Assembly (NCBI GenBank): GCA_029260055.1
Contig: JAJDDX010000263.1
Span: 1-54,982 of the forward strand
Length of the DNA: 54,982 nt
Origin: Phycisphaerae bacterium
GTDB lineage: Bacteria > Planctomycetota > Phycisphaerae > UBA1845
Direction of reading: 5' to 3'
Shown: positions 6,252 to 30,853 of the stretch, in pieces
Layout of the letters: each line of letters opens with the position of its first letter
How positions within the stretch are numbered: the stretch's first letter is position 1
The notes under the pieces: generated by a model
The model's input: only the letters and a program-made list of their open reading frames with translations
What the model was told of the DNA's origin: nothing
Database searches by the model: none
Translations under genes and position numbers: made by a program

Positions 6252-8444
6252 CTACGGGCACTCGCCGAAGTTCATCGGCAACAGGCTTCCACTCCACGCG
6301 GTGAACTCCCCGGCGCCATTGAGGACGTCCACGAGACCCACGATATCCGACGGCCCGCACTGACCATCGTGGTCGACATCGCAACCGTACAGACCCCACG
6401 GGCAGGCCCCCAGACCGTTGATGCAATCGATCTCGGCGATGATGTCCGACGGCGCGGTCTCGATGTCGCCATTCACGTTCCCGGGATGGGAAGTGAACGT
6501 ACCCATAGCACCCGTCCCTATGTAGGTGATGGTCGTGACGGCACCGGTCGTGATCGGCCGCGCAAGGTGAATGATATAGGCGCCGGTTCCGTCGTCCTCG
6601 ACGGACGTGACGCTGTTCGGGGCCCCCGTGTGGTCGGTCTCGCACACATCCCAACAACAGCCGTTCGCTCCACCGGCAGGCGCAAGGACGCGCACCGCGT
6701 CGATCCCCTGCAGTGCCGTGGGATCGCCGAGCGGATGCGGTTGGCGTGCATCGACGACGCCGTCTTCCGGATCGAGGAACACCACGTTACCGGCAGGACA
6801 GCCGAAGGTGCACAGGGCCCGCGCTTCGTCAGCGCAGATCTGATCCCACTCGACCGCGCAGCACCAGCGGTCCTCGTGGCAGACACGATCGCAGCAGGCG
6901 GCACTTCCGCAGCCGGCCGACGTACTCGCCGAGCAGCAATCGCCCTGTCCGGTCTCACATGCGTAGAACGGGCACTGCTGCAAGCCTTGGTCGCAAAACC
7001 GGTCGCGCTGCCACGTCCCACCGGCGGTAAGGCAATCCTCCTCGGTCAGGTTCTCGCACGTGTCCGTCGGAAGGCAACAAGCGAACGTGCCGCACGGCGG
7101 GACAAAGGGATCAGGATCACAAACGGCGCCTTCGATCCATCGGCCCGGCGCACAGGAAAGCTCGGTGGTCTGGGCGCAAGGCGGCGATCCCGGCGGCGGC
7201 GGAATCTGGCAGCACGCTCCGAGAGGCGGGTCGCCCATGCAGAAGACGGTGATCTGGAACGCCGCGTAGGGATTCCCGCTGAACCAGTACAAGTTGCACG
7301 CGTCGGGGCTGGTCGGTTCGTCCCAGAGCGCGTAGAGGTCCTCGCTGGTTCCGATGGTGGGTTCACCCGAGACCACGGGGCCCGTCGCGCCGGTCGACGG
7401 CGTGACCGCCACCCAGAACACCGGGCTCGGAAGCGGCACACCCTCGGCGAACGAGACTCGCGCCGTTTCCACGGAGCCGTCGCCGACGCCCTGGAACGTA
7501 AACGCCGTGCCGGGAATCGCGGCGGCCGCGTCACAGGGGAACCAGAGCTCGATATTCGCACTGAAAGACCCCGCGTTGCCGATCAGGCCTACTTCGTAGC
7601 CGGACAGCACGCAATCGTCCACGAACAACGCCACATCGTCGAGAACCGTCCGGTTCGCACCCCGCGCCACCACGTCGCCCGGCCCGGAATTCAGGTATCC
7701 GAGGAACTGGGTGTCGACCGCCCCATCGCAGTAGAGCTTCGCCGAAAATCCCGCGTGCAAATCGGTCCCACCGAAGCGGGCCTCACATCGCGGAGCGAAG
7801 ACCATGTCGTATACGTCATCCGTAAAGCCGATGTCGGCCTGCGAGCCGACCATCCACCCGGCGCTGGCGCTGGAGAAGCTTGTGCCGACCCAAAGAGCCG
7901 ACCCGACCGGCACCGGCGCCGCAGCCAGATCGACCGTCAGGAGGTGCAGGCCGTCGTCGAGCACGTCCATCGAACCGGCGGTCCCCGGAATGATCTGACC
8001 GCTGTTGCCGGGACACGCGTCGTACAGCGCGAAGTCGACGGTGAACCCCGGCCCGCTTCCGTCTCCGCCGCCGCTGACGAGCACCTCGTAAGCGGCGAGA
8101 TTGCAGCCGCCCACCGCGGTCGTGAAGACATCATCCGCCATCACGAAACCGGCTGGGAGGGTCAGGAGTATCGCCCCGCGCACGTTGCTGTAGACGAGTG
8201 TGCCGGTGGGATCACCGGCGCGCGTGGAACTCGCGCCGTCGGCGTACACGTGCTCGGTAAGCTTCGCGCCGGCCGGCACCGGCGTCAGCACCGCCCCTTC
8301 CGGAAGCTCGCCGGACTCGACCGACGACGCGAGGATCACGTCGGACGGTTCGAGGTTGTCCACGATCGCGGGCTCAGCGGCGGCCGCGGCCGACGCCAGA
8401 ACAGCACACAGGACAAACGAAGGAACAAGCCGTAGGTTGTGCAT
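6252..8444 (-). CDS. Secreted Cys-rich dockerin-like protein, array copy A (shortest)
   Basis: 730 aa, last and most divergent of eight tandem paralogues. Signal peptide 1-22 with an Ala-rich end. Beta-rich module 1 (about 80-240; GGGDGSGPGF and FALYDACP are the family landmarks), module 2 (about 270-405), then Cys-rich repeats: PLGACC, a second unit FACCLP, and the CC-x2-VC-x4-CC-x3-WD-x2-C module. The PPC-like module present in the other seven copies is missing; the Cys-rich part runs straight into DGVVDARQPH and a dockerin-like pair (NVNGDIETAPSDI and DVDHDGQCGPSDI). It ends in GECP. Probably surface-located or secreted and disulphide-bonded; function unknown. GGGGAA lies 7 bases before the ATG. 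Confidence 0.85.
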   Translation of the reverse strand: MHNLRLVPSFVLCAVLASAAAAAEPAIVDNLEPSDVILASSVESGELPEGAVLTPVPAGAKLTEHVYADGASSTRAGDPTGTLVYSNVRGAILLTLPAGFVMADDVFTTAVGGCNLAAYEVLVSGGGDGSGPGFTVDFALYDACPGNSGQIIPGTAGSMDVLDDGLHLLTVDLAAAPVPVGSALWVGTSFSSASAGWMVGSQADIGFTDDVYDMVFAPRCEARFGGTDLHAGFSAKLYCDGAVDTQFLGYLNSGPGDVVARGANRTVLDDVALFVDDCVLSGYEVGLIGNAGSFSANIELWFPCDAAAAIPGTAFTFQGVGDGSVETARVSFAEGVPLPSPVFWVAVTPSTGATGPVVSGEPTIGTSEDLYALWDEPTSPDACNLYWFSGNPYAAFQITVFCMGDPPLGACCQIPPPPGSPPCAQTTELSCAPGRWIEGAVCDPDPFVPPCGTFACCLPTDTCENLTEEDCLTAGGTWQRDRFCDQGLQQCPFYACETGQGDCCSASTSAGCGSAACCDRVCHEDRWCCAVEWDQICADEARALCTFGCPAGNVVFLDPEDGVVDARQPHPLGDPTALQGIDAVRVLAPAGGANGCCWDVCETDHTGAPNSVTSVEDDGTGAYIIHLARPITTGAVTTITYIGTGAMGTFTSHPGNVNGDIETAPSDIIAEIDCINGLGACPWGLYGCDVDHDGQCGPSDIVGLVDVLNGAGEFTAWSGSLLPMNFGECP

Positions 8445-8817: not shown

Positions 8818-11511
8818 CTAGGGGCAATCTCCGGTGGCCGTCGGCAACGGCGCAGCCATCCACGGCGCGAACGATCCGGCGCCGTTTAGCAGATCGATCA
8901 AGCCGATGATGTCAGATGGGTCGCACACCCCGCTATGATCGATGTCGCAACTGTAGGTCCCCCACGGCGAGTACGCCGTTGCGTTGAGGACGTCGATGAG
9001 CGAGACGATGTCGGCCGGGTCGGTCGCATCGCTCGCATCGACGTTGCCCGGGTGCGCGGTGAACGCGCCGGAGGTACCGTCGCCGGCATACACGATCCGC
9101 GTGACCGCGCCCGCTGTCATCGCTCGCTCCAAGTGCAAGGTCGACGAGCAATCAGCGTGAGGCTCGACCTGACCTACGCCATTGGCACCGCCCTCCTCAC
9201 ACACCGTCCAGCAGGCGGGTGCCGTTCCGATCGGCCCTTCGATGTGAAGTCGATCGATGCCGCGCAACACATTCGCATCATCCGGCGCGTGGGGTTGCCG
9301 TGCATCGACCACGCCGTCGGGCGGATCTATCCAGTTGATCGATCCGGCGGGACAGGTCGGCGCAGCGGCCGGATCAGGACATGGAGCGGATGCCGGCGAC
9401 GTGATGGTCAAGACATGCTCGCCCGTGCTATCCGACGACTTAGAAGCGAGCAGGATGTAGTAGGTTTCGCCGGGATTGAGACCGTGGGCGCAGATGGCCG
9501 CGCGGAGGTCGCCGCAGTCACCGTCGTCGTTGCACGCGATCGGCGTCAGTGACTCGCAGGCTGCGTGCTCGTTCGAGTGGTCCGACGCTCGCATCAACTG
9601 AAGCAGGGAATCGGAAGCGCTGTCGTCGGCCGTTCCGCAGGTGTCGATGCGCGCCGTGGTGTGTGTGGCCATAAACTTCGCCCATATCCCGCCGTAGCCG
9701 AAGTTGCCGGCACCGGCCGGATGACAGCAGAATCTCTCGTTGCCCCACGTTTGGTCGTGCTCGTTCGACAGATAGGAGGTGCTGTTGGCGCCGACTTCGA
9801 TCGCGCCATAGCCCGGTTCATCAGACCAGCAGTCGGCGTACGAAACCGGCGTGCTTCCGCCGCAGTAGTTTCCGATCGCGCCGCGGACGCAGTTCCAATC
9901 CCACTCCACCTCGCAGCAGTAGGGATCGATATCGCACACGGCGTCACAGCAGTCCGATGTCATGCAACCGGGCGTGTCGTGCGGTACGTCGCACGCCCCG
10001 TCGGCATATCGACAGGGCCAGTGGACGCAGTGTTGCCCGCTGTCGCCGCAGAAGTATTCCGGCCGCCACGCGGCCGGGTTGCCTACATCGTCGACGATCG
10101 CCTCGCACTCGTCCCGGGTCAGATTGAAGCAGGCTTCGCCGCCGGGTCCTTGCGGCGGCGTGCAACAGGCAGCCGTCCCGCATGGCGGATCGAAGGCGGC
10201 AGGATCGTCGCACGTCGCGCCGCGCAACCATCTCCGTTCGCGTCCGTCTGGGCTGCAAATGAGCTCGGTCGTTTCCCGACAGGTTCCGAGGCCGTCTTTC
10301 AGTTCGCAGCACGCACCGATCGGCGTCGACCCGAGACAGTAGACGTTGACCGCCAAGCCTGCCCAAGGGGTGCCGCTGAACCAGGTGAACGAACACCCTC
10401 CGCCGTCTGCCCATGCGATCAGATCGTCGGTGTGGCCTATCGTTGCTTCACCGGAGACGATCGCCGACGCGTTCGGATTGAATCTGTACGCCATCCAGAA
10501 GGAATCGCTACCACCCAAGTCAACGCCATCAGGAAACTCGACGCGCGCAAACATCGGCGAGCCGTCAGCCACGAACTGAGTCGCCCCCTGTGTGCCTTCG
10601 ATCGTGTTCGCTGTGCCGCACAGCGACTGTAGCTCGGCCGTCATCGTAACCGCGCCGCCGCCCGCGGCCACGGCGCCGATCTCGTAGCTGGTCATGATGC
10701 AGTCATCGACGACCAACTCTATGTCGTCCATGGCCCACTGCACGGCCCCCGGAGACCACGGCATCCCGTTCAGGTTGTTGTTGAGGTAGGCCGGGAACTC
10801 GGTCTCGAAGGGCGGCTCGCACCAGACGCGGGCGTGGAACCCGGCATAGACTGCGGTGCCGCCAAACCGCGCGGCACACTGCACGAAAACGAAGTCATAC
10901 ACGTCCGCGGTGAAGCCAATCTCTGCGGGCGTGCCGAACACCCAGCCCGCCGACGGCGAGTCGACCGAAACGGCGAGCCAGACTGTCTTGCCACCGGCCA
11001 CGGGAGCGGCCGACAAGTCAATCACGATGGCGTGCAAGCCGTCGTGATCGACGGTCACCGACCCACCCGCGCCGGGTATGACCTCCCCACCGCCATGGGG
11101 GCATCGATCGTACAAATCGAAAGTCACCGTGAAGCCCGGGACACCGCCGTCGCCCATGCCGGCGACCATGATCTCGTACGCGGTGATGTCGCATCCACCG
11201 ATCGCCGCGGTCATCAGATCGTCGGCCACGACAACGTTGGGAATACCCAGCGCGAGGTAGATCTCCGGCGGAGGCGTGTTGGAGTAGGCCAGATTCTCGT
11301 CAGAGAGCTCACCCGCGAGCATCCGCTGCTGCCCCGTGGATGGATCGTAGTAGTGCCTTTGGATGGGCAGGTTCGGAGGAAGCTGAACGACGGTCGCCTT
11401 CGACTCCGCGCCGGCGCCTTCCGCAACGTCGTGTGCCTGTCCGGCGGCAGCAGGCATCGCTACCGCGCAGATAAGAGCGACAGCGAGAATGGCCACGTGC
11501 AGCGACCGCAT
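8818..11511 (-). CDS. Secreted Cys-rich dockerin-like protein, array copy B
   Basis: 897 aa from the ATG at 11511. The open frame runs 67 codons further upstream, but that part only translates palindromic repeats, while MRSLHVAILAVALI at 11511 is a clean signal peptide. AGGG directly abuts this ATG, so the ribosome site is poor. Order: two beta-rich modules, Cys-rich repeats (GACCEL, AACCTPP, CCDAVCDIDPYCC), one PPC-like module (WAKFMATHTTARIDTC to HVLTITSPA), DGVVDARQPH, dockerin-like pair, end GDCP. It lacks the DCPxGQxC insert seen in copies C to H. Probably exported; function unknown. Confidence 0.85.
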   Translation of the reverse strand: MRSLHVAILAVALICAVAMPAAAGQAHDVAEGAGAESKATVVQLPPNLPIQRHYYDPSTGQQRMLAGELSDENLAYSNTPPPEIYLALGIPNVVVADDLMTAAIGGCDITAYEIMVAGMGDGGVPGFTVTFDLYDRCPHGGGEVIPGAGGSVTVDHDGLHAIVIDLSAAPVAGGKTVWLAVSVDSPSAGWVFGTPAEIGFTADVYDFVFVQCAARFGGTAVYAGFHARVWCEPPFETEFPAYLNNNLNGMPWSPGAVQWAMDDIELVVDDCIMTSYEIGAVAAGGGAVTMTAELQSLCGTANTIEGTQGATQFVADGSPMFARVEFPDGVDLGGSDSFWMAYRFNPNASAIVSGEATIGHTDDLIAWADGGGCSFTWFSGTPWAGLAVNVYCLGSTPIGACCELKDGLGTCRETTELICSPDGRERRWLRGATCDDPAAFDPPCGTAACCTPPQGPGGEACFNLTRDECEAIVDDVGNPAAWRPEYFCGDSGQHCVHWPCRYADGACDVPHDTPGCMTSDCCDAVCDIDPYCCEVEWDWNCVRGAIGNYCGGSTPVSYADCWSDEPGYGAIEVGANSTSYLSNEHDQTWGNERFCCHPAGAGNFGYGGIWAKFMATHTTARIDTCGTADDSASDSLLQLMRASDHSNEHAACESLTPIACNDDGDCGDLRAAICAHGLNPGETYYILLASKSSDSTGEHVLTITSPASAPCPDPAAAPTCPAGSINWIDPPDGVVDARQPHAPDDANVLRGIDRLHIEGPIGTAPACWTVCEEGGANGVGQVEPHADCSSTLHLERAMTAGAVTRIVYAGDGTSGAFTAHPGNVDASDATDPADIVSLIDVLNATAYSPWGTYSCDIDHSGVCDPSDIIGLIDLLNGAGSFAPWMAAPLPTATGDCP

Positions 11512-11816: not shown

Positions 11817-14645
11817 TCATGGACACCCTCCCGTCACCGGCGGCAGCGGCGTACCCATCCACGACGTAAACGCGTTGGCTCCGTTGAGCAAATCGATCAC
11901 GCCGATGATGTCGGACGGGCCGCACGTGCCACCATGGTCGACATCGCAACTGTAGAGGCCCCACGGCGGCACTCGCACTTGATTGAGCATGTCTATCAGC
12001 GAAATGATATCGCCCGGATCGGTCGCATCGCTCGCGTCGACGTTGCCCGGATGCGCCGTGAACGCTCCGGGGTTGCCATCACCCGCGTAGACGATGTGCG
12101 TGACCGCCCCGGCTGTGATCGGTCGGGCCAGGTGCAGCGTCGAACCGCAAATCGCGCTGGGCTCGACCATAAGCACCGCGTTGGTGCCGGTGTCGTCGCA
12201 AAGCGTCCAGCAATCCGGCGTCGTGCCGATTGGGCCGCCGACGGAGAGTTGGTCGATGCCCCGCAGCGCGTTTGCGTCGTGCGGCGCGTGCGGCTGCCGC
12301 GCATCCACCACGCCGTCGGGCGGGTCTATCCAATCGATCTCGCCGGCCGGGCAATGGGGCGGACCGCCCGGCGTCGGGCACGGACCGGATGCGGGCGAAG
12401 TGACCGTCGCCAGATAGTGGCCCGCGGTGGCCGGCGTGGCTGAAGCCATCAGGACATAGTACGTTTCCCCGATCACCAGGTTGTACAGACAGACGGAGGC
12501 ATGACCGGCCTCGCATCCGCCGTCCGTGCCGCAGCCGATCGGGATCAGCGAGTTGCAGGCGGCCTCGGGGCCGGCGTGATTGAGCGCTTTGAACACTTGG
12601 AGAATCGAATTCGTCGCGTTGCCGGCGATGGCTGAGCAAGTATGGACGCGAGCGGAGGTCTCACTCGCTACGAACTTCGCCCACACACCGCCGGTGCCCG
12701 GAAGACCCGCGCCTTCGGGATGGCAGCAGAGTTCCTCGTGCGGCCCGGGTGTGGCTGTCTCGTTGATCATCGGCACCGAGCCGTTCGCATCGCAGGTCTG
12801 ACCGGGTGGGCAGTCCGCGTGAGTAGCACACGGCGCACCGCCGCCGCTGCACTCGTTCATCATGACCGCGCCCGATCCGGGCAGCGGGCCGTAGCAGTCG
12901 TCGTTGGCGGGCGGCTGAATCGAGCAGCCATCCGGGCCCAAGGCTCGCTCGGCACATCCTTCGTCCCACTGAACCGCGCAGCAGAAGGGGTCCTGGTCAC
13001 AGATGCGATCACAGCACGACGGTGAATTGCAGCCCGGCGTGCCGTTGGGAACCGCACAGGCGCCCTCTGCGTGGCGGCAGACCCAATGGATGCAATCCTG
13101 ACCCGGATCACCGCAAAACAGCTCGGACTGCCAGACGGCCGGGTTGCCTTGGTCGTCGACGATTGACTCGCACTCCGCCTGCGACATGTCGCGGCATCCC
13201 TCGCCCATCGGCGCATTGGGTGGTGTGCAGCAAGCCGCAAGATTGCACGGTGGACCGGCGGGCCCGTCGCACAGCGTTCGGGGAAGCCAGTGCTTCCCGG
13301 GACCCTGGCACTCGACCGCCGTGGTTTCCGTGCAGGTCTGCGGCCCGGGATTGGTTCCGTCGCAGCATGCGCCCATCGGGCGCGGGCCCAGGCACCGAAT
13401 CGCGATCGGAAGCCCGACATGTTCGTTGAAGACCGAGATCAGCAAGCAGCCACCCGGAACCGTTTGCAGACGAAAGCGAGAATCGGTGAAACCCAGTTCC
13501 GCTTCGCCCGCGATCAAGTGGGTCGAGGACTCGTCGTAGCGAAACCCGACGAAAAACGAGGTGCCGCCGCCCAGATCGATGCCGCCGGGATACTCGAAGC
13601 GAAGCAGCGTGGAAGCGCCCGCGTTGTCCAGCGCGCCGGATCGCCGGGTCCCTTGAACGGCGGTACTGGGCCCACAGAACCGGCGGACCTCGGTTGACAG
13701 CTTCGTCGGCAGGCTGAGGTGGCCCCGCCCTGCTACTTCGAGGCTGCTGAGGATGCAGTCGTCCATGACCAACTCGACATCATCGAGGTACCAGAGATCG
13801 GGCTGCGCACCGTACGTCCCATCGCCGACGTTTTCGTTCGAATAGGCGAGGAACTCGGTGTCGAACGGCGGGGCGCACCAGACGCGGGCTCCGAAGCCGG
13901 CGTGTAGCGTGGTCCCTTCGAAACTCGCCGTACACGGCGTGAACACCGCATCGTAGACATCCTCGGTCAGACCTATGTCCGCCGCCGTCCCGAGGAGCCA
14001 GCCGGGTCCGGCGCGGCTGAAGCTCACACCGATCCAGAACCTGTTGCCCAGCGAGATCGGGCTGCCGCGCAGATCGACGAGAATGTGTGAGACCCCGTCA
14101 TTGTCGACCGTAACCGTGCCCGCGGTGCCGGGGATGACCTGGCCGCCGTCGCTCGGGCAGGAGTCGTACAGCGCGAAGTCCACGCCGAACCCGAGGCCCG
14201 TCCCGTCGCCGCCGCCCGTCACCTGCACTTCGTACGCACTGATGTTGCAGCCGCCGGCTGCGATGGTCCTGATGTCATCGGCGACGCGCACACCCGCCAG
14301 AAGCGGCAGGAAGGTGGTCGGCGGCGGCGTGTTGGCGTAGACCAGATTGTCGTCGCCGAGGCCGCCGCCGGCCTGACGATGTTCACCCGTCGTGGGGTTG
14401 AAGTAGTGCCGCTGGATCGGCACGCCGGGCGGCAACTCCGCGACACGCACTTCGGCCGCGTCATTTGTCGTCTGCCCCGCTGCCGGCATCTGAAGCGCGA
14501 GGGCGATCACGCCGGCAGTGACCAGAAGGTTCGCCGTCGACATCCCCATCATGCCGGTGTCGGTGTTGATACGACCACCGCGCAGAGCGATGGCGCGTTG
14601 CGATGGAATCCCGTTTGAAACGCTTCTTTCTTTCCGCCTCTTCAT
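11817..14645 (-). CDS. Secreted Cys-rich dockerin-like protein, array copy C
   Basis: 942 aa from the ATG at 14645, chosen because GGGAG lies 7 bases upstream and because it leaves a 108-base spacer to copy D, matching other spacers in the array. A long basic n-region precedes the hydrophobic signal ANLLVTAGVIALAL. Modules in order: beta-rich 1 and 2, Cys-rich repeats (GACCDG, AACCTPP, SCCDRICDQDPFCC), an insert with CATHADCPPGQTC, one PPC-like module (WAKFVASETSARVHTC), DGVVDARQPH, then a dockerin-like pair with CDVDHGGTCGPSDI, ending GGCP. Exported surface or secreted protein by inference; no catalytic motif seen. Confidence 0.85.
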   Translation of the reverse strand: MKRRKERSVSNGIPSQRAIALRGGRINTDTGMMGMSTANLLVTAGVIALALQMPAAGQTTNDAAEVRVAELPPGVPIQRHYFNPTTGEHRQAGGGLGDDNLVYANTPPPTTFLPLLAGVRVADDIRTIAAGGCNISAYEVQVTGGGDGTGLGFGVDFALYDSCPSDGGQVIPGTAGTVTVDNDGVSHILVDLRGSPISLGNRFWIGVSFSRAGPGWLLGTAADIGLTEDVYDAVFTPCTASFEGTTLHAGFGARVWCAPPFDTEFLAYSNENVGDGTYGAQPDLWYLDDVELVMDDCILSSLEVAGRGHLSLPTKLSTEVRRFCGPSTAVQGTRRSGALDNAGASTLLRFEYPGGIDLGGGTSFFVGFRYDESSTHLIAGEAELGFTDSRFRLQTVPGGCLLISVFNEHVGLPIAIRCLGPRPMGACCDGTNPGPQTCTETTAVECQGPGKHWLPRTLCDGPAGPPCNLAACCTPPNAPMGEGCRDMSQAECESIVDDQGNPAVWQSELFCGDPGQDCIHWVCRHAEGACAVPNGTPGCNSPSCCDRICDQDPFCCAVQWDEGCAERALGPDGCSIQPPANDDCYGPLPGSGAVMMNECSGGGAPCATHADCPPGQTCDANGSVPMINETATPGPHEELCCHPEGAGLPGTGGVWAKFVASETSARVHTCSAIAGNATNSILQVFKALNHAGPEAACNSLIPIGCGTDGGCEAGHASVCLYNLVIGETYYVLMASATPATAGHYLATVTSPASGPCPTPGGPPHCPAGEIDWIDPPDGVVDARQPHAPHDANALRGIDQLSVGGPIGTTPDCWTLCDDTGTNAVLMVEPSAICGSTLHLARPITAGAVTHIVYAGDGNPGAFTAHPGNVDASDATDPGDIISLIDMLNQVRVPPWGLYSCDVDHGGTCGPSDIIGVIDLLNGANAFTSWMGTPLPPVTGGCP

Positions 14646-17543: not shown

Positions 17544-17549
17544 CTCACG

Positions 17550-17555: not shown

Positions 17556-17607
17556 TGGGTTCGCCGTTCGAACGTCGTGTAGCGCCTCGGAAAGAACGCG
17601 ACACTCA

Positions 17608-21328: not shown

Positions 21329-21436
21329 GACTTGCCTCCTTGACCGTGCTCGGCCACACGCACGTTACCCCACCGCGCGTTGAGCGGTCGATCGTGGATT
21401 CGAATCTGAGGCTGAGGCGTAAAGCGACCTCAGCGA

Positions 21437-24400
21437 CTACGGACAACCTCCTGCTGCCGTCGGCAGCTCAGCGCCGAGCCACGATGCGAACGCGTTGGCA
21501 CCGTTGAGAAGATCGATCAGTCGGATGATGTCGGACGGATCGCACCCACCGCCACGATCGATGTCCGTCTGCCAAGCCTCGCAGGGAATGGCGGACACCT
21601 CGTTGATACAGTCTATGAGTGAAATGATGTCCGCGGGGTCCGTGACTCTGTCGCCACTCACGTCGCCCGGTAGTGAGCCGATGCAAACCGACTCGCCTGT
21701 CTCGTTGTATGTGATACAGGTCCACTGCCCCGGTGTGATCTGCCGATCGAACTGAAGCGTGGCCGTGTACTCCGCAACCGTCACACCCACGATGGTCAAC
21801 GTGGGATCGGAGAGGGCGTACGCGTCGGCCGCGGCGGACGGTAGCATGCCCCCGCACGTGAATTGGAGCGCTATCGAATCCCATCCCTGCAAAGCACCCG
21901 CATCGTTCGGCAAGTGCGGCTGACGCGCATCGACCGCACACGTCGGCGGTGTGCTTTCCGCGAGGATGCAGCACTCATCCGGGATGCCATCGCCGTTGGC
22001 ATCGATAGAAAAGCCCCATGTGATGTCGCACTCGTCGGGCCACCCGTTGTCGTTGCAGTCGTGGCTTGTCCCGTCGGCGATGTCGTCAACATCCGGAATG
22101 CCGTTCTCGTTGCAGTCCAGCGCCACGTCGCTGATCGAAAGCGTGCCGGTGAACTCGTCACCGTTGCGAGCGGCTAGACGCACGTGATAGCGTTCGAGTT
22201 CATCGACGCTGAAGGTTATGGAAGAACCGACACCGCACGCCCCGCCCGCGTCGTCGTTGCAGACGATCCAGCCGTCGGTCGTTGTGGGGCAATCGCCGCC
22301 GTCGTACGCGATCAGGATGGTGTCCTGATCCGGTTGCCCGCAGGTATCGATCGTGACGATGCCGTTGCCGAGCCCCACGTATTCGAACCACACGTCGCCG
22401 GTCATGTCCGGCGCGCATGAGTCCATCGGGCACTCGACCGCCGCGTTGGTCAGATCGAACGTCGTCGTGCCTATGACTTGGGTTGCCAAGTCGCATGTGT
22501 CGTTATCCGGCACCTGGTCCGGATCCGCGCATGGCTCAGCCGCCGGCGACTCGACGCTGACCCGGTAGTAACCCTTCGTACCCGCCGTCTTCGAATCGAG
22601 AAGGACGTAGTAGGTCTCGCCGATGGTCAGATCGTAGAGGCAGATCGACGCCTGGCCCTCATCGAGGCAGCCGCCGTCGTCGTTGCACCTGATCGGCACG
22701 AGCGAACTGCACGCCGCTTCCGGCGAACTGTGGTCCGTGGCACGGAACACCTGCAGGAGCGCGTCGGTGGCCGGCTCGTTATTCGCCGCGCAGGTATGCA
22801 CGCGTGCGGAGGTCTCGGTGGCCGTGAACTTCGCCCAGATACCGCCGTAACCGGTCATCCCCGCTCCGTCTGGATGACAACAGAAGCCCTCGCCGGAGCT
22901 GACCGTGGCCCGGTCGTTCGTCATGGTCGTAGCGCCGTCGGCAAGGCACTGCTGACCCAGTGGGCAATCCGCGTCGGCAAAGCACTGGTCATGGTTGTCG
23001 GAGCACTCGTTGAGCATAATGGCGCCGGCACCTGGGACCGGGCTGTAGCAGTCATCGTTGGCGACCGGAAACGAGTCGCCGCAGTAGGCGTGAGCCCGGG
23101 CGACGCACGTGCTGTCCCATCCGAATAGGCAGCAGAACGGGTCCTGATCGCAAACAACATCGCAACACGTCGGCACGTTGCAGCCGAGGCTCGGATGGAC
23201 CAAATCGCACGGTCCTTCGGCGAAGCGGCAGACCCAGCTAATGCAGTCTTGTTGCCCCTCGTAGCAGAACTGACCTGGCTGCCAGACAGCCGGGTTGCCG
23301 GCTCCGTCCTGGTTGTCCGGATCGCCGCACTCGGCCTCGGACATGTCGCGGCAGGTTTCACCAAACGGCGAGTAGGGCGGCAAGCAGCAGGCAGCGCTAC
23401 CGCAAGGCGGATCGAAGGCGTGCGGATCGGCGCAGTCGCCCCCCTCGGCCCATCGCTGCAACGGCCCGAGGCACCGGGCCTCGGCGGTCTGTCGACACAG
23501 CTCACCGCCCGGCGCGTTCGAATCGCAGCACGCGCCCTGCGGCGGGCTCCCTAAGCAGTTGATGTTGATGGGAAATCCCCAGCCGATGTCCCACCACATC
23601 GTGCAGTTGCCTGCGTTGTCTTGCTCACCAAGCATTTCCTCCGTGAAGCCGAGCCAGGCCGGCCCAGTGACGATCGTGCTGGCGCCGCGGTCGAACTTGT
23701 ACGCCAGAAAGAAGGAGGCGCCACCTCCCAGATCCACGCCTCCGGGAAAGACGAAGCGCGCCAGCGACGGCGAGCCGTCGGCGAAGAACTGCGCCTCAGC
23801 TTGTGTACCCTCAACGAGAGGGTTGGAACCATAGACACAGGACCGCTGCAACTGAGCCGTGATCGTCACGTCAACGTCACCGGTTCCGACCGCGCCGATC
23901 TCGTAGCTGCTGAGGATGCAGTCGTCGACGATCAACTCCACGTCGTCCACTGCCCAATACCCTGCTCCGACTGACCACTGGTCCCCGGTCAAGTCATCGT
24001 TGATGTACGCCGGAAACTCGGCGGTGTACGGTGGCTCGCACCAGACGCGGGCGTGAAAGCCGGCGTAGAGGTTGGTGCCGCCAAATCGAGCGTGGCACGG
24101 CTCGAACATGAAGTCGTATACGTTGCGCGTGTAGCCGACATCAGCGGGCGTGCCGAGCACCCAGCCGGCAGAACCCGAATCGAACGACACACCGATCCAG
24201 AAAGAACGATCCACGGCGACCGGCACGTCGCTGAGATCGACGACGATGTATTGCATCGCGTCGTTGCCCGTCGTGATCGAGCCTTCCGTCCCGGGAATCA
24301 CCTGGCCGCCGCCGCCGGGGCAATCGTCATAGAGCGCGAAGGTCGCCGTGAAGCCCGGCCCGCTTCCGTCACCACCGCCTGAGACCAGAATCTCGTACGC

Positions 24401-24772
24401 GCTGATGCTGCATCCGTTGACGGCGGCCGTCTGGATGTCGTCAGCCACGAGAATGTCGGGCAGGCCGAGCGCCAGGTACACGTCGGGCGGCGGCATGTTG
24501 GAGTAGACGGGCTCCTCGAGAGGAGGTTCCGCGGCCATCGTGCGATGCTCGCCGGTGGATGGGTTGTAGTAGTGGTGTTCGACCGGCACGCCGGCCGGAA
24601 GCTGACGCACCTGCTTCGCGGACGCGATGTCGACGGGTACCCCTACACCGTCGTCTCCCGCCGCCGCACTGCACGCAACACTCGAGAAAGCGGCGATCAC
24701 CGCTGCCGCTCGCAAACCGTGCCCGTGTCTCGCTCTACGTTCCCCCACGTTGCCACTCGCATAGACCGTCAT
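21437..24772 (-). CDS. Secreted Cys-rich dockerin-like protein, array copy F
   Basis: 1111 aa; AAGGAGG at 24779-24785. Nearest relative of copy E: the same MTV start, the same ribosome site context, the same second PPC-like module (DNDTCDLATQ), and the same switch from the DPPDGVVDARQPH form to the PPTCAVDARQPH form. It differs from E by a third DCN/DGIPD-type repeat (DCNENGIPD, DCNDNGWPDEC, DANGDGIPDEC) and by one DCPLGQQC insert instead of two. Dockerin-like pair GDVSGDRVTDPAD and DIDRGGGCDPSD; ends GGCP. E and F look like the most recent duplication in the array. Exported; function unknown. Confidence 0.87.
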   Translation of the reverse strand: MTVYASGNVGERRARHGHGLRAAAVIAAFSSVACSAAAGDDGVGVPVDIASAKQVRQLPAGVPVEHHYYNPSTGEHRTMAAEPPLEEPVYSNMPPPDVYLALGLPDILVADDIQTAAVNGCSISAYEILVSGGGDGSGPGFTATFALYDDCPGGGGQVIPGTEGSITTGNDAMQYIVVDLSDVPVAVDRSFWIGVSFDSGSAGWVLGTPADVGYTRNVYDFMFEPCHARFGGTNLYAGFHARVWCEPPYTAEFPAYINDDLTGDQWSVGAGYWAVDDVELIVDDCILSSYEIGAVGTGDVDVTITAQLQRSCVYGSNPLVEGTQAEAQFFADGSPSLARFVFPGGVDLGGGASFFLAYKFDRGASTIVTGPAWLGFTEEMLGEQDNAGNCTMWWDIGWGFPININCLGSPPQGACCDSNAPGGELCRQTAEARCLGPLQRWAEGGDCADPHAFDPPCGSAACCLPPYSPFGETCRDMSEAECGDPDNQDGAGNPAVWQPGQFCYEGQQDCISWVCRFAEGPCDLVHPSLGCNVPTCCDVVCDQDPFCCLFGWDSTCVARAHAYCGDSFPVANDDCYSPVPGAGAIMLNECSDNHDQCFADADCPLGQQCLADGATTMTNDRATVSSGEGFCCHPDGAGMTGYGGIWAKFTATETSARVHTCAANNEPATDALLQVFRATDHSSPEAACSSLVPIRCNDDGGCLDEGQASICLYDLTIGETYYVLLDSKTAGTKGYYRVSVESPAAEPCADPDQVPDNDTCDLATQVIGTTTFDLTNAAVECPMDSCAPDMTGDVWFEYVGLGNGIVTIDTCGQPDQDTILIAYDGGDCPTTTDGWIVCNDDAGGACGVGSSITFSVDELERYHVRLAARNGDEFTGTLSISDVALDCNENGIPDVDDIADGTSHDCNDNGWPDECDITWGFSIDANGDGIPDECCILAESTPPTCAVDARQPHLPNDAGALQGWDSIALQFTCGGMLPSAAADAYALSDPTLTIVGVTVAEYTATLQFDRQITPGQWTCITYNETGESVCIGSLPGDVSGDRVTDPADIISLIDCINEVSAIPCEAWQTDIDRGGGCDPSDIIRLIDLLNGANAFASWLGAELPTAAGGCP

Positions 24773-24882
24773 GACTTACCTCCTTGAAAGAAGTCCAGCC
24801 GGCGGCGCGGTACCCCACTCGCAGGCCCGCCGGCGGTCACAATTCGCATCAGCGAGACCGAGGCGCGTAGTTGCCTCGATCC

Positions 24883-27657
24883 TTACGGACAATCGCCCGT
24901 GGCGGCGGGCAGCGGTGTCCCGAACCACGGCTCGAACGCACTTGCTCCGTTGAGTAGATCGATCAGCATGATGATGTCGGATGGATCGCAAATGCCGCTG
25001 TGATCCATGTCGCAACTGTAAAGACCCCACGGCGGTTGATGCACCTCGTTGAGCATGTCGATCAGCGAGATGATGTCGCCTGGGTCGGTCGCGACGTCCG
25101 CGTCGGCGTTGCCCGGATGCGCCGTAAGCGACGCCATCGCACCGGTTCCCGAATAGACCACCCTCGTCACGGCCCCGGCTGTGATGGGCCGGTCGAAGCG
25201 CAGCGTCGATGTGCAATCCCGGTGCGGCTCGACCGAGGCAATGGCGTTCGTGCCGACCTCGTCGCAGAGGGTCCAGCAGGTCGGATCGGCTTCGATCGGC
25301 GCGCGCACGTGCAGGCGGTCGATGCCGGATAGTCGGCCGGCGTGGTTCGCGTCATGTGGCTGGCGCGCGTCCACAACGCCGTCGGGCGGATCGAGCCAGT
25401 CGACCGTGCCGGCCGGGCATGTCGGCTGCCCTCCCGGATCGGGGCACAAGGGAGGAGCCGGGGATTCGAGCGTGAGGCGGTACAGTCCGTGCGTTTCCGG
25501 CGATGCCGACGCCAGCAAGACGTAGTAGGTTTCGCCGATGGTCAGGTCATGCAGGCAGACCGCGGCCTGACCGGCGGCGCATCCGCCGTCATCGATGCAA
25601 CCGATCGGCACGAGCGAGTTGCACGCGGCCTCGTCGGTCGAATGATCCAACGCACGGAAGACCTGGATCAGTGAGTCGGTCGCCGCTGGGTCGCCCGTCA
25701 AACAGGTATCGACCCGCGCGGACGTGTGCGTGGCGGTGAACTTGGCCCACACGCCTCCGGTCGCGGGGAGCGCGGGTCCATCGGGGTGACAGCAGAACGC
25801 CTCAGTCTCTTCCGTCGTCGCGGTCCCGTTCCACAGGTCCGTGGCGCCGTTTGCCGCACAGGTGTCGCCGGCCTGGCAGTCTCCGTCGGTTTCGCAGCGC
25901 TCGCCGGTGACGGCACAGTGGTTGAGCGACAGGGCGCCCCGTAGCGGATCTGGGTCATGGCAATCGTCGTAGCTCAGGTCGAGGTCGCGGCAGCCCATCG
26001 GGGCGACGACCCACTCGATGCAGATGCTGTCCCATTCGACCTCGCAGCAGTAGGGGTCCTGCCCGCAAACTAGCTCACAACAATCGGGTGATGAGCATCC
26101 GGGTGTGCCGTTCGGCAGCTCGCAGGCGCCCGTGGCGTATTGGCATGCCCACCGCACACAACCTTGTTCGGGATCGCCGCAGAAAGACGGCGCCTGCCAG
26201 ACCCCGGGGTTCCCCTGGTCGTCAACGATCGCTTCGCACACCGACCGCGCCAGGTCAAGGCAAACTTCGCCCATCGGTGCGCTCGGCGGCGTGCAGCAAG
26301 CAGCGAGATCGCACGGCGGACCGGCGGGGTCCGCGGCGTTGCAGGACGCCCCTTGCACCCAGGATTTGTGAGGGCCGATGCAGCTCGGCGCCGTCGTCTC
26401 GCCACAGGCGGGTACATTTGAGTCGGTTCGGTCGCAGCAGGCGCCGAGGGGCGAAGAGCCCAGGCAACGGACAGTCACGGCCATGCCGACGTAGTACCCC
26501 GGAAGAGAACTGACCAGGCACTCGTCGGTCTCATCGATAACGACGCCGTAGTACTCCCCGGTATAGCCCAGTTCGGCCTCGCCGGCGAGTGGCGTGCCGG
26601 CATCGCGGTCGAAGCTGTATGCCAGCCAGAACTCCGCCCCACCGCCCAGGTCGATACCGCCTGGGAAATCGAAACGCACGAAGGAAGGCGTCCCGTCCGC
26701 CACGAACGTCGCCGTGCTGCGCGTGCCCGGGATGGCGGCGCCCGACCCACAGGTGTGGAACAACTCGGTCGTTACGACTGTGATGCCTCCTCCGGTGCCC
26801 ACCACACCGAATTCAAAGCTGCTGAGCACGCAGTCGCTGACGACCAGCTCGAAGTCGTCCGCCCACCAAAACCCGGCAGGTAGAACCCAAACGTCTCCGT
26901 CGAGTTCCGTGTTGGCGTAGACAAGATACTCGGTCTCGAACGGCGGCTCGCACCAGACGCGGGCGTGGAAGCCCGCGTAGAGATCGGTCCCCGAAAAACG
27001 AGCGGCGCAAGGCGAATACACCATGTCGTAGACGTTGTCCGTATAGCCCGTATCCGCGTGCCGACCGAAGATCCATCCGGGTTCCTGCCGATCAAACGAA
27101 GCACCGATCCAGAAGCGATTGCCGGTCGAGACAGGTGATGACGACAGGTCGACAAAAATGAAGTGAAGGCCGTCATGGTCCGTCGCCACCGAACCCTGCG
27201 TGCCGGGGATCGGTTCCCCTCCGCCGTTCGGGCAGCCGTCGTAGATGGCGAAATCGACGGTGAAGCCGGGGCCACTGCCGTCACCGCCGCCGGCGACACC
27301 GATTTCAAAACCGTTGATGCTGCAACCGTCGATGGCGACCGTCAGGATGTCGTCGGCGATCCGGATATTCGGAGGCAAGGCGAGGAACACGTCCGGCGAC
27401 GGCGTGTTTGAATAGACGAGGTTCTCACCGCCGCGGTCGCCCGCGCGCAGGCGATGCTCGCCCGAACCGGGGTCGTAGTAGTGCCGCTCTATCAGAGCCC
27501 CGGCCGGCACCTCGGTGACTGTCGCCGGGGGTTCGATTTCGGGTGCTCCGATCGCGGTGGACACCGCACAGCCCACGGCCAGCGTAAGGGTGATCAACCA
27601 ATCGGACCTTCCCTTCCGGAGGCTGCACGCCGCGATTCCACTACGATGTCCAGCCAT
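24883..27657 (-). CDS. Secreted Cys-rich dockerin-like protein, array copy G
   Basis: 924 aa; GGGAG at 27665-27669 precedes the ATG by 7 bases. Signal peptide with WLITLTLAVGCAVSTAIGA. Modules: two beta-rich, Cys-rich repeats (GACCDR, AACCTPP, DCCELVCGQDPYCC), an insert CETDGDCQAGDTC, one PPC-like module (WAKFTATHTSARVDTC), DGVVDARQPH, dockerin-like pair with CDMDHSGICDPSDI, end GDCP. Spacers on both sides are exactly 110 bases. Function unknown; surface or secreted location inferred from the signal peptide and dense cysteines. Confidence 0.86.
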   Translation of the reverse strand: MAGHRSGIAACSLRKGRSDWLITLTLAVGCAVSTAIGAPEIEPPATVTEVPAGALIERHYYDPGSGEHRLRAGDRGGENLVYSNTPSPDVFLALPPNIRIADDILTVAIDGCSINGFEIGVAGGGDGSGPGFTVDFAIYDGCPNGGGEPIPGTQGSVATDHDGLHFIFVDLSSSPVSTGNRFWIGASFDRQEPGWIFGRHADTGYTDNVYDMVYSPCAARFSGTDLYAGFHARVWCEPPFETEYLVYANTELDGDVWVLPAGFWWADDFELVVSDCVLSSFEFGVVGTGGGITVVTTELFHTCGSGAAIPGTRSTATFVADGTPSFVRFDFPGGIDLGGGAEFWLAYSFDRDAGTPLAGEAELGYTGEYYGVVIDETDECLVSSLPGYYVGMAVTVRCLGSSPLGACCDRTDSNVPACGETTAPSCIGPHKSWVQGASCNAADPAGPPCDLAACCTPPSAPMGEVCLDLARSVCEAIVDDQGNPGVWQAPSFCGDPEQGCVRWACQYATGACELPNGTPGCSSPDCCELVCGQDPYCCEVEWDSICIEWVVAPMGCRDLDLSYDDCHDPDPLRGALSLNHCAVTGERCETDGDCQAGDTCAANGATDLWNGTATTEETEAFCCHPDGPALPATGGVWAKFTATHTSARVDTCLTGDPAATDSLIQVFRALDHSTDEAACNSLVPIGCIDDGGCAAGQAAVCLHDLTIGETYYVLLASASPETHGLYRLTLESPAPPLCPDPGGQPTCPAGTVDWLDPPDGVVDARQPHDANHAGRLSGIDRLHVRAPIEADPTCWTLCDEVGTNAIASVEPHRDCTSTLRFDRPITAGAVTRVVYSGTGAMASLTAHPGNADADVATDPGDIISLIDMLNEVHQPPWGLYSCDMDHSGICDPSDIIMLIDLLNGASAFEPWFGTPLPAATGDCP

Positions 27658-27767
27658 TTTTCGACTCCCGACTCGAACGGGACGCCCGGCAGCCGGCGCT
27701 ACCCCGCGCCGAACGAGCGCCTGATCGTGGACTCATCCGTGACGCCGACGCGCGACCGCGTCGCGTT

Positions 27768-30524
27768 TTAGGGACAACCTCCCGTGGCAGTGGGCAGTTC
27801 GGTCCCGAACCACGGTTCGAACTCGCCCGCACCGTTGAGAAGGTCAATGACGCCGATGATGTCCGACGGATCGCAGACACCACTGTCATCCATGTCGCAA
27901 CTGTAAAGACCCCATGGCGCTGGATTCACTTCGTTGAGTACGTCGATCAGCGCGATGATGTCGCTCGGATCGGTCGCACCGTTCGCGTCGACGTTACCCG
28001 GATGCGCCGTAAACGAGGCGGGTGTACCGTCGCCGGTATAGACGACCCTGGTCACCACCGCGGCTGTGATCGCCCGGTCGAAGTGCAGCGTCGATGTGCA
28101 GTCGCGGTGCGGCTCGACCGAAGCGATTCCGTTGCCGCCGTCGTCACAGAGCGTCCAGCAATCCCTATGCGTGCCGACGGGTCCGAGCACGGTAACGGCA
28201 TCAATACCGCGCAGCCGGTTCACGTCGTACATGTCATGTGGCTGGCGGGCGTCCACCACGCCGTCGGGCGGATCGAGCCAGTCTATCGACCCGGCCGGGC
28301 ACCCGGGCAGGTTCCCTCCTGACAGGCAAGGCTGATTGTCGTAGGAATAGAGGCTTACGAGATAATGCCCGGCGGAATCCGCTGACTTTGACGCCAGCAA
28401 CACATAGTAGGTTTCGCCAACCGTCAGGTCGTACAGAAAGACCTTCGCTTGCCCGGCGTTCGAGCAGTCGAAGTCGTCGTTGCAGCCGATAGGAATCAGC
28501 GAGTTGCAGGCTGCTTCTTCACTCGAGTGATCCGACGCGCGGAAAACCTGAATCAGCGCGTCGGAGGCGTTGTCGTCTTGGGTGGAGCAGCTCGATACTT
28601 GTGCGCAGACGCCCGTGGCCGTGAACTTCGCCCACACGCCTCCGAATGCGGGCGTGCCAGGCCCGTCCGGGTGGCAGCAGAAGCCCTCCTCCGCGCCGCT
28701 GGTGGCCCCGGTGTTTCTCAGCTCCACGCCCCCGTCTGCCTGGCAGCGCTGACCGGCCGGACAGTCCGCGTCGCTTGCGCACTGCTCTCGGCTGACGGAG
28801 CATTCGTTCAGCATGAACGCGCCCGTGTACGGGTCCGGGTCATAGCAGTCGTCGGTGGAGGCAGGCAGGTTGATACAGCCACTCGGGCTGAGGGCTCGCT
28901 CTGCGCAAGTGCTGTCCCATTCGAACGTGCAGCAGAACGAATCCTGGTCGCAAATCCTGTCGCAGCAACTCGGGATATTACAGCCCGGTGTGCCGTTCGA
29001 CACATCGCATACCCCCTCGGCGTGTCGGCAAACCCACCGGATGCAATCCTGGCCCGGACTACCGCAGTATTGCAGCTCCTGCCACTCGGACGGATTGCCC
29101 TGCTCGTCGACCATGGCCTCGCAATCCTGTTGAGGCAACTCGACACAGGTCTCGCCATAGGGTGAGTTCGGCGGGGTGCAGCACCCCCCTACGTCGCATG
29201 GAGCGCCGTCCGGTTCGCACACGGTGCCCTGCACCCACAGTTTGAGCGGACCGAGGCACTGATACGGAATGGTCTCGCTGCACGTGATGGAGCCGGGAAC
29301 GGACCTGTCGCAGCAGGCACCTACCGGCACTTGACCGCGGCAGTAGACGTTGATCGCCAAGCCCGCATGGGGATCACCACCGAACATGAACAGGTCGCAA
29401 CCCTGGCCATCGTCGCTCTGAACTGCGAACGAGTCCTCCGTGAAACCGACAGTGGCGCGCCCCGAGAAGATAACGTCCGCAGCGCGATCGAACTTGAATG
29501 CCACCCAATACTGATTGCCCGGTCCTAGGTTCACGGGCGCCGAAGGTACGAACTCGACGAAGGAGCGTCCGCCATAGGCTCCGAACTGCTCCGTGGCTCG
29601 CGTGCCCTCGACCGCGAACGCCGGTTCGCATTGCGTGCGAAGTTCCGCGGTGACGGTGATGCCTCCGCCGCCGGTAGCCGTGGCGGCGATCTCGTAGCGG
29701 CCCAGGAGGCAGTCATCGACGATCAATTGGATGTCGTCCATGATCCACCGCTCCGCGGCTCCCGGGTATGTCATGCCTGTCAGGTCGTTGTTGACGTACG
29801 CGGCGAATTCGACGTCAAATGGCTGCTCACACGCCACGCGGGCGTCGAAACCGGCATATAGCCCGGTCCCCGCGAAGCTCGCCGTACACGACGTGTACGG
29901 AATATCGTAGATGTCATCCGTAAAGCCGACTTCCGCCGGCGTCCCTACGAGCCAACCCGGCCCCGCGCGGTCAAAGCTCACACCGATCCAGAAGGTCGCG
30001 TTCACGTAGACGGGATTGGCGTCCAAATCCACGATGATGCCGACAATTCCGTCGTGCGTGGATGTGAACGAACCCTCGGTGCCGGGCACCATCTGGCCAC
30101 CGCCGCTTGGACAGCCGTCGTAGATGGCGAAGTTGGTCGTGAACCCACTGCCGCCGCCGTCACCGCCGCCCGCCACTTTGATCTCGTAGTAGTTGACGTT
30201 GCAGCCTGATACCGCGATCGTCGTGATGTCATCGGCGATCAGCAGGTTCGCCACGGGAACGGGAATATAGGCGACCGGAGGAGGCTCATTGACGTAGACC
30301 AGATCAAGCGGAGGCAAGCCGGCGGCGACAAGCCGATGCTCACCGGTGCCAGGGTGGTAGTAATGCCGCTCCGCCAGCGCCCCTGGGGGAATCGGCACAG
30401 CCTCCGCCGCCCACATCGCGTCACTCGAGACATTGCCATCCGCCCCATTCATCTCCTCTACTGCCACACTAGTGACACTGCACGAAAGGAACACCATCCA
30501 CCCGAAGTGTACGCTCGCTGCCAT
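27768..30524 (-). CDS. Secreted Cys-rich dockerin-like protein, array copy H (first in transcription order)
   Basis: 918 aa from the ATG at 30524, which has GGAGG at 30531-30535; an upstream ATG at 30581 adds 19 residues before the signal peptide and has no such site. Modules: two beta-rich (module 1 with GGGDGGGSGF), Cys-rich repeats (GACCDR, GCCTPP, SCCDRICDQDSFCC), insert CASDADCPAGQRC, PPC-like module in which the usual TSARVDTC is CAQVSSC, DGVVDARQPH, dockerin-like pair with CDMDDSGVCDPSDI, end GGCP. It is the promoter-proximal gene of the array and lies about 180 bases after a putative promoter. Confidence 0.86.
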   Translation of the reverse strand: MAASVHFGWMVFLSCSVTSVAVEEMNGADGNVSSDAMWAAEAVPIPPGALAERHYYHPGTGEHRLVAAGLPPLDLVYVNEPPPVAYIPVPVANLLIADDITTIAVSGCNVNYYEIKVAGGGDGGGSGFTTNFAIYDGCPSGGGQMVPGTEGSFTSTHDGIVGIIVDLDANPVYVNATFWIGVSFDRAGPGWLVGTPAEVGFTDDIYDIPYTSCTASFAGTGLYAGFDARVACEQPFDVEFAAYVNNDLTGMTYPGAAERWIMDDIQLIVDDCLLGRYEIAATATGGGGITVTAELRTQCEPAFAVEGTRATEQFGAYGGRSFVEFVPSAPVNLGPGNQYWVAFKFDRAADVIFSGRATVGFTEDSFAVQSDDGQGCDLFMFGGDPHAGLAINVYCRGQVPVGACCDRSVPGSITCSETIPYQCLGPLKLWVQGTVCEPDGAPCDVGGCCTPPNSPYGETCVELPQQDCEAMVDEQGNPSEWQELQYCGSPGQDCIRWVCRHAEGVCDVSNGTPGCNIPSCCDRICDQDSFCCTFEWDSTCAERALSPSGCINLPASTDDCYDPDPYTGAFMLNECSVSREQCASDADCPAGQRCQADGGVELRNTGATSGAEEGFCCHPDGPGTPAFGGVWAKFTATGVCAQVSSCSTQDDNASDALIQVFRASDHSSEEAACNSLIPIGCNDDFDCSNAGQAKVFLYDLTVGETYYVLLASKSADSAGHYLVSLYSYDNQPCLSGGNLPGCPAGSIDWLDPPDGVVDARQPHDMYDVNRLRGIDAVTVLGPVGTHRDCWTLCDDGGNGIASVEPHRDCTSTLHFDRAITAAVVTRVVYTGDGTPASFTAHPGNVDANGATDPSDIIALIDVLNEVNPAPWGLYSCDMDDSGVCDPSDIIGVIDLLNGAGEFEPWFGTELPTATGGCP

Positions 30525-30850: not shown

Positions 30851-30853
30851 GGT

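Follow-up and report, generated by a model that had tools for sequence, protein, structure and literature searches.

What might eight adjacent genes for large, cysteine-rich proteins do for the bacterium that carries them, and how would their products be held outside the cell? The question is raised by a 54,982-nucleotide contig (JAJDDX010000263.1, C183 in our numbering) of the Phycisphaerae bacterium assembly GCA_029260055.1 (7.63 Mb, 500 contigs, completeness 100, contamination 4.84); this whole contig is called the window here. Eight consecutive paralogous open reading frames (ORFs) occupy positions 6252–30581 of its minus strand, with longest-ORF lengths of 730–1131 aa and pairwise amino-acid identities of 40–64%, which bears out the eight minus-strand paralogues of a preliminary description of this DNA. 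The upper limit of 30524 given there agrees with an internal ATG of the last ORF, whose longest reading begins with TTG at 30581; for P0003 and P0004, too, the true starts are probably further inside the longest ORFs. The same description saw a locally expanded family of exported-looking, disulphide-rich, dockerin-tailed proteins, and our analysis supports it. We tentatively propose that the array proteins are diversified ligand-binding (adhesin-like), non-enzymatic subunits that dock non-covalently to extracellular cohesin-bearing proteins.

By profile, the modules follow one another in the order A, B, Cys-rich, PPC-like (in 7/8 proteins) and tail. Modules A (~190 aa) and B (~165 aa), described earlier as two β-rich modules, are jelly rolls by structure prediction and, as a correction, mutually homologous (hhalign probability 98.9%, E 1.2e-17). 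Four Cys in A and four in B are invariant among the eight copies, as are 21 in the Cys-rich module (~150 aa). The landmark GGGDGxGPGF is exact in 5/8 proteins, with one or two changes in the other three; ARVWCEPPF is exact in 4/8 and carries one or two changes elsewhere, except for seven in gene 1. An export-like N-terminal segment is visible by eye in 8/8 proteins and forms the top hydropathy peak in seven, P0008 scoring higher at an internal stretch; signal peptides were assessed by eye and hydropathy, not by a predictor. The C-terminal 60 residues are devoid of a membrane segment in 8/8 (Kyte-Doolittle maximum 0.83–1.24). Cys content is 5.0–5.8%, versus 0.4–1.3% in a neighboring six-gene array.

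None of the eight proteins matches a Pfam family at E ≤ 0.1, and their sole NCBIfam match is a Cys-rich repeat in P0008, under its cut-off. These scans agree with the earlier statement that known glycoside hydrolase, protease and cohesin domains are lacking; a glycoside hydrolase is not recognized since no Pfam family was matched. Neither database recognizes A, B or the Cys-rich module, and NCBIfam at E ≤ 10 returned two unrelated names for the A+B stretches of ten members, one member each. Searched against PDB sequences, the A+B profile hit prefoldin twice within E 10 (best E 1.1) and nothing else, and a whole-protein PDB search with P0006 gave no meaningful match. Pfam does not recognize the PPC-like module in the window proteins, nor did the profile of this module match a PDB sequence.

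The tail is the module that connects the array to a described mechanism. All eight proteins end in a DARQPH block, a tentatively Ig-like part, two 12-residue loops and a terminal CP. Asp occupies position 12 in 16/16 loops, and positions 1, 3, 5, 9 and 12 are all D/N/S/E in 12/16, in line with the dockerin-like calcium-binding pair noted before. The array tails and the wider own-genome tails form one aligned family; the alignment holds 25 tails, namely the eight array copies and 17 of 23 other places, six being left out as partial or unpicked. Pfam Dockerin_1 is found in 19/25 of these at E ≤ 0.1 (best 1.2e-6), and three tail carriers reach 21.6, 21.1 and 17.9 bits where the cut-off is 22.9. 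The best PDB sequence match of the tail profile is the X-module/dockerin pair of CipA, at E 5.7e-4 with 25 tails and 0.002 with the eight array tails. A model of gene 7 from the Cys-rich module onward, of modest confidence (mean predicted local distance difference test score (pLDDT) 65.6, predicted template modeling score (pTM) 0.46), places helices 460–469 and 493–502 behind the loops, and one tail matches Big_5 (E 0.0086). Judged from these alignments, kinship of the tail with dockerins, via the wider family, is well supported, and full dockerin function in the array tails less so. The terminal CP was considered as a general sorting motif and rejected; at least 7/25 aligned carriers (L014, L015, L019, L021–L024) end without it, so that it is a subfamily trait.

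The tail occurs in 31 places of the own genome (32 by profile). Carriers identified by Pfam are the subtilases L135 and L021 (Peptidase_S8, E 3.7e-57 and 6.1e-55), the FG-GAP protein L136 and the GBD protein L127; the β-helix-like proteins L015 and L022 carry it by eye. Dockerin-tailed plant cell wall hydrolases were not seen among the eight proteins and four further carriers scanned with Pfam (12/31 tail places); the other places were inspected by eye. The Cys-rich profile matches 37 places, and GBD_T9SS_assoc is found in the related proteins L127 (E 3.1e-8, over the cut-off) and L117 (E 6.6e-5, below it). Modules A and B occur together in 14 proteins, six of them beyond the array on five other contigs, and A without B in a further five (20 matches, as one protein is split in two). 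Where it occurs without B, module A is fused to M43 (pappalysin-type) metallopeptidases in L121:7720-10113 (+) and L123:2-1969 (-) (Pfam E 4.7e-7 and 1.7e-7), which L048/L124 resembles by eye, and to FG-GAP repeats in L120 and L122 (Pfam).

Potential partners of the tail are encoded in the same genome. A genome search for cohesin PF00963 gave six matches, each exceeding the cut-off, with two on L128 and one each on L129, L130, L084 and L085; HYR domains are present in 3/6 of these proteins and Dockerin_1 over its cut-off in 3/6, and L128:11825-13852 combines HYR, cohesin and Dockerin_1 over cut-off. A multi-cohesin scaffoldin was not found among Pfam-detectable cohesins, each of the 6/6 proteins having a single matched stretch (L130 ends at a contig edge). 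Two cohesin+HYR proteins lie ~3 kb apart at L128:1671-13852 (+), the larger of which, of 2352 aa, contains a β-helix as well and has a cohesin that falls below the cut-off in a whole-protein scan; we regard this as a candidate scaffold locus. Across 36 genomes of the family including the own one, a cohesin (E ≤ 0.001) is present in 17/20 whose best tail match is strong (E ≤ 1e-20) and in 7/16 others (Fisher p = 0.014).

The same inventory admits a second use of the array proteins, as accessory substrate-binding subunits of a 'planctosome'-type extracellular proteolytic complex and not as adhesins. The tailed subtilases, the fusions of module A to M43 peptidases and the cohesin+HYR proteins all suit this possibility, and PPC and collagen-binding domains often accompany secreted peptidases. 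No peptidase gene is recognized within the array or immediately next to it (an M50 peptidase is encoded at 53322–54920), the eight subunits have no known catalytic domain, and the planctosome is itself hypothetical, which makes service to proteolysis doubtful. Its chances and those of the adhesin-like reading are not exclusive, because the docking step is common to both.

A different kind of C-terminus was found at the position of the tail. The A+B paralogue L117 ends in IPTL-CTERM in its place (23.0 bits, cut-off 20.8), and the family member L175 of a relative ends in an IPTL-CTERM-like motif. C-termini were classified in 83 A- or B-bearing proteins (60 fetched stretches, a subset of the A+B matches, plus own copies and L087/L088): 36 end in the tail, eight in another dockerin-like sequence ('DOCK2', by regular expression only), one is IPTL-like, 28 are other and ten are cut by the stretch end, the class 'other' including L117 (IPTL-CTERM by Pfam) and L123 and L124 (cut by contig ends). 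The own genome holds 56 IPTL-CTERM and five exosortase matches, a large set parallel to the dockerin-tail set. The exchange of dockerin tail for IPTL-CTERM inside a single family and genome amounts to a natural experiment in the fixing of extracellular proteins.

The tail may instead be a sorting or secretion signal, like the C-terminal domains of type IX secretion system (T9SS) or exosortase substrates, read by an outer-membrane apparatus with no docking to cohesin. Nearly all profiled carriers have it at their C-terminal end or close by, the IPTL-type ends of L117 and L175 sit at the same position, the own genome is rich in IPTL-CTERM, genome G026 has 43 tails and zero cohesin, and the array tails are weak dockerins. 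The 854-aa protein L133:3737-6298 (+) counts against a terminal signal, since its DARQPH-dockerin unit lies near the N-terminus (res. 71–236), ahead of a Cys module, and the five calcium-ligand positions intact in 12/16 array loops would be superfluous for a pure signal. We consider this sorting reading unlikely; together with service to proteolysis it is the strongest rival of cohesin docking by ligand-binding subunits.

What the heads of these proteins might bind was approached by structure prediction. The A+B model of gene 7, built from ten sequences (mean pLDDT 85.2, pTM 0.70), best matches the lectin-like domain of Cwp84 (Z 13.0, rmsd 2.8 Å over 139 residues, 6% identity, model range 133–353), followed by a phage phi812 baseplate protein (Z 12.9), a PBCV-1 capsid protein (Z 11.3), the N-terminal part of a polyvinyl-alcohol esterase (Z 9.5–9.7), a PHR domain (Z 9.7), the carbohydrate-binding module (CBM) of BT0996 (Z 8.5) and CBM36/22/61 (Z 7.0–7.5). 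These matches mostly cover B; A was folded together with it. Foldseek rankings, with low TM-scores on the query, served as leads only. The fold predicted for A/B is a widespread type of jelly roll. The PPC-like model of gene 7 matches the collagen-binding domains of ColH (Z 10.1, rmsd 2.5 Å, 109 residues) and ColG (Z 9.3, 95 residues), as well as CorA (Z 9.2, 127 residues, rmsd 3.9 Å) and the receptor-binding domain of C. perfringens enterotoxin (Z 6.2–6.6), the last read as a like fold. Module B is more diverse than A (sequence entropy 1.36 versus 1.03–1.07). Hypervariable binding loops were not detected, strands and loops showing no entropy difference inside A or inside B. Module A contains a strongly conserved Gly/Asp loop, VAGGGDGSGPGF in gene 7.

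Disulphide-rich, β-rich proteins from tandem genes with export-like N-termini, whose nearest fold is a domain of a surface-layer (S-layer)-associated protein, may also be structural coat proteins that assemble with each other into an S-layer-like or sheath set. Eight divergent copies (40–64%) with a variable number of modules and a dockerin tail suit display over a single lattice, SLH and other S-layer domains are absent (Pfam E ≤ 0.1, 8/8), and we find a coat improbable. The lack of a known catalytic domain is no proof against an enzyme, because A, B and the Cys-rich module match no family, and the very conserved loop of A and the polyvinyl-alcohol esterase match may hint at one, but jelly rolls are common and A by itself is found, in the manner of accessory modules, on proteins that are clearly enzymes (M43), so that at least one module concealing an unrecognized activity is the least probable of these readings.

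An assembly artefact, which the preliminary description named as a possible refutation, is rejected because the copies are merely 60–81% alike in their inter-copy DNA repeats and other genes flank the array within the contig: GcpE and GNAT genes at 1199–6168 and, by eye, uracil-DNA-glycosylase-like and LpxA-like ORFs at 31146–32705. All 28/28 gene pairs have dN/dS of 0.21–0.40 (dS 0.88–1.89), and the copies are old paralogues under purifying selection. Recent gene conversion within the array is not supported: nearest neighbors vary somewhat by module, the lowest proportion of synonymous differences (pS) for a module is 0.43 (genes 5 and 6), and the sole hint is in the tails of genes 7 and 8 (pS 0.44 versus 0.61 whole).

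The A+B profile matches 27/60 genomes, comprising the own one, 23/35 of the same family and 3/24 of the rest of the order; elsewhere in the phylum, A/B was found in 0/148 sampled genomes (at most 13 first-look candidates scored per genome, among the matches listed). Among genome contigs, 146 pattern matches were checked and two loci of one metagenome-assembled genome, Planctomycetota bacterium CSMAG_2921, have the same module order. Plasmids gave no match with gene 7 as query, 0/52 pattern matches in viral contigs were confirmed, and a literature search covering few subscription papers returned no description of this A/B family. A tree was computed from 50 proteins with A and B (30 with the tail, four other dockerin-like, one IPTL-like, ten other, five cut). 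It requires 13 label changes for 13 genomes, against a minimum of 28 in 200 shuffles, and 8/10 multi-copy genomes form a single cluster, G013 having one outlier and two G021 copies standing apart. This genome-wise clustering fits separate expansions. The 14 own copies are one group (support 100/97), and a branch supported at 71/97 places the eight array copies on one side and the other six on the other, with gene 1 the deepest branch; given that support, a local tandem origin of the array is likely but not firm.

In the ligand-binding reading that we favor, the proteins would be exported and then folded with disulphides. A, B and the PPC-like module would present binding faces to outside ligands, perhaps glycans or glycoproteins, with the Cys-rich module as a rigid spacer. 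The Ig-like/dockerin unit would retain the protein outside the cell by docking, in a calcium-dependent and non-covalent way, to exported proteins with cohesins from the same cell. A single extracellular assembly could in this way accept various binding heads as well as tailed subtilases, and the copies would have diverged toward different ligands. They may then form a variable cell-surface or matrix system, as first suggested. If the tails bind the own-genome cohesins, the bacteria would possess an assembly outside the cell that serves adhesion or capture. A more elaborate version is rather speculative and, taken as a whole, unlikely: a non-enzymatic plug-in display of lineage-specific paired jelly-roll heads, amplified separately in distinct genera and more diverse in B, held on HYR-cohesin scaffolds via the Ig-dockerin unit in an interchangeable adhesive matrix around uncultured planctomycetes, with the heads alternatively fixed by exosortase.

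Several observations weigh against docking by adhesin-like subunits. Dockerin_1 fits the array tails weakly (E ≤ 1 in 4/8, best 0.015, all well short of the cut-off), a ligand residue is missing at position 5 or 9 in 4/16 loops (gene 1 in both of its loops), and the Ig-like part reaches only Z 4.7–6.3 in fold matches. Cohesin scores are low: five proteins have 24.6–38.7 bits against a cut-off of 24.1, and the sixth has 21.8 scanned whole. The tail threshold of E ≤ 1e-20 was picked after the data were seen; counting only cohesins over the Pfam cut-off, which drops G017, gives p = 0.038, and any tail at E ≤ 0.001 gives cohesin in 23/31 versus 1/5 (p = 0.034), all of these values being optimistic because the genomes are related. 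Besides G026, G018 (two tails) and G028 (one) have no cohesin match, and G022 has 12 cohesin matches and zero tails; for G026 and G022, either cohesins or dockerins go unrecognized or the pairing of tail with cohesin does not hold in every case. On the binding side, CBM matches at Z 7–8 are inside the stated background of the tool, phage baseplate and capsid proteins rank level with Cwp84, and the lectin-like domain of Cwp84 has no proven carbohydrate ligand, its function being left open by the authors (PMC4089489). Genome-wise clustering could come from concerted evolution instead, and a surface location of the array proteins is conjectural.

Table 1. Positions of the eight array genes and their modules in the window.
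Feature	Protein	Position	Strand	Remark
Gene 1	P0001, 730 aa	6252..8444	-	export-like N-terminus, A, B, Cys-rich module and tail; without PPC-like module
Gene 2	P0002, 964 aa	8818..11712	-	
Gene 3	P0003, 974 aa	11817..14741	-	start codon uncertain
Gene 4	P0004, 1047 aa	14754..17897	-	start codon uncertain
Gene 5	P0005, 1131 aa	17933..21328	-	by eye, second PPC-like stretch and DCxxxGIPD repeats preceding tail
Gene 6	P0006, 1111 aa	21437..24772	-	same features as gene 5, the nearest paralogue (64% identity)
Gene 7	P0007, 924 aa	24883..27657	-	protein used for structure models
Gene 8	P0008, 937 aa	27768..30581	-	likely start ATG at 30524
Modules A+B, gene 1		7236..8288	-	
Modules A+B, gene 2		10333..11391	-	
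Modules A+B, gene 3		13389..14444	-	
Modules A+B, gene 4		16329..17393	-	
Modules A+B, gene 5		20093..21154	-	
Modules A+B, gene 6		23552..24610	-	
Modules A+B, gene 7		26461..27519	-	model m2c5d65c37b1e, mean pLDDT 85.2
Modules A+B, gene 8		29337..30401	-	
Cys-rich module, gene 1		6822..7232	-	
Cys-rich module, gene 2		9871..10329	-	
Cys-rich module, gene 3		12936..13385	-	
Cys-rich module, gene 4		15870..16325	-	
Cys-rich module, gene 5		19628..20089	-	
Cys-rich module, gene 6		23087..23548	-	
Cys-rich module, gene 7		26002..26457	-	
Cys-rich module, gene 8		28887..29333	-	
PPC/collagen-binding-domain-like module, gene 2		9373..9873	-	
PPC-like module, gene 3		12372..12938	-	
PPC-like module, gene 4		15309..15872	-	
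PPC-like module, gene 5		18974..19630	-	
PPC-like module, gene 6		22523..23089	-	
PPC-like module, gene 7		25438..26004	-	modeled; ColH/ColG fold match
PPC-like module, gene 8		28320..28889	-	
DARQPH Ig-like + dockerin tail, gene 1		6255..6773	-	position 9 of both loops is a non-ligand residue
Tail, gene 2		8821..9327	-	
Tail, gene 3		11820..12326	-	
Tail, gene 4		14757..15263	-	
Tail, gene 5		17936..18451	-	
Tail, gene 6		21440..21952	-	
Tail, gene 7		24886..25392	-	modeled; helix behind each loop
Tail, gene 8		27771..28274	-	

Evidence of an operon or promoter did not rise above chance: positions 17500–33000 contain two promoter-like sites, against 2.9 in shuffles, and 11 terminator-like sites, against 8.4 (standard deviation 3.2). 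A second, unrelated tandem family adjoins the array in the window: six ORFs of 468–496 aa at 33721–42727 (+), 31–47% identical and without a Pfam match at E ≤ 0.01. By eye their products have a membrane segment at the N-terminus, and a DPFxGxPxRxAxT block is conserved close to the C-terminus. The gene at 42733–44688 (-) encodes a β-helix protein (PF13229) that by eye has one CC..WD..C stretch of the array Cys-rich module and an EF-hand-like end. An apparent lipid cluster follows at 45060–53285 (+), with an acyltransferase, a HAD phosphatase, an alcohol dehydrogenase, a YegS/DAGK-type lipid kinase and a 1415-aa fusion of NAD_binding_4/Sterile (fatty-acyl-reductase-like), AMP-binding, PP-binding and acyltransferase domains.

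Among known systems, the cellulosome shares with the array a tail profile that aligns over the CipA X-module and dockerin, and cohesins are present in the own genome; it differs in that the eight proteins have no glycoside hydrolase and each cohesin protein has a single cohesin stretch (6/6). The predicted A/B fold, chiefly that of B, is shared with the lectin-like domain of Cwp84, an S-layer protease of C. difficile in which the jelly roll also sits on an exported protein; a profile search found no sequence homology, identity is 6%, and the modules here form a tandem pair. The PPC-like module has the predicted fold of the ColG and ColH collagen-binding (PPC) domains and no Pfam or PDB-profile match; collagen binding is not implied. 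Exosortase/IPTL-CTERM proteins are linked to the family through L117, and differ from the array proteins in their C-terminal membrane segment, which 8/8 of the latter lack.

The preliminary description could not match the array to a described system. A near one has been proposed: cohesins and HYR+cohesin proteins are encoded in the own genome and the tail is common to subtilases. PMC6461901 describes the 'planctosome', a hypothetical cohesin-dockerin complex of freshwater planctomycetes (Nemodlikiaceae) without cellulose breakdown, with a dockerin+HYR+cohesin adaptor, an LTD/P-domain+cohesin anchor, and M12B and M14 peptidases bound via cohesin-dockerin pairs as its proposed parts. Both systems have cohesins and dockerins with no sign of cellulose degradation; here, peptidases are dockerin-tailed, and HYR+cohesin proteins resemble the adaptor, one of them (L128:11825-13852) with a Pfam-level dockerin. 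The differences are these. An LTD+P-domain+cohesin anchor was not found in the 500-contig assembly, LTD lying on C1, C251 and C416 (the last below cut-off) and cohesins on C160, C468, C146, C281 and C346 (P-domains were not sought); the peptidases seen belong to S8 and M43 (no search was aimed at M12B and M14 with dockerins); and the A/B jelly-roll proteins and tandem family are not described in the available part of PMC6461901. It is plausible that the array system works like a planctosome; membership is not established. Non-cellulosomal cohesin-dockerin systems and modular secreted binding proteins are already known as kinds, and what is unusual here is the scale and the module, which offer a testable extension of such systems, with many binding subunits in place of enzymes.

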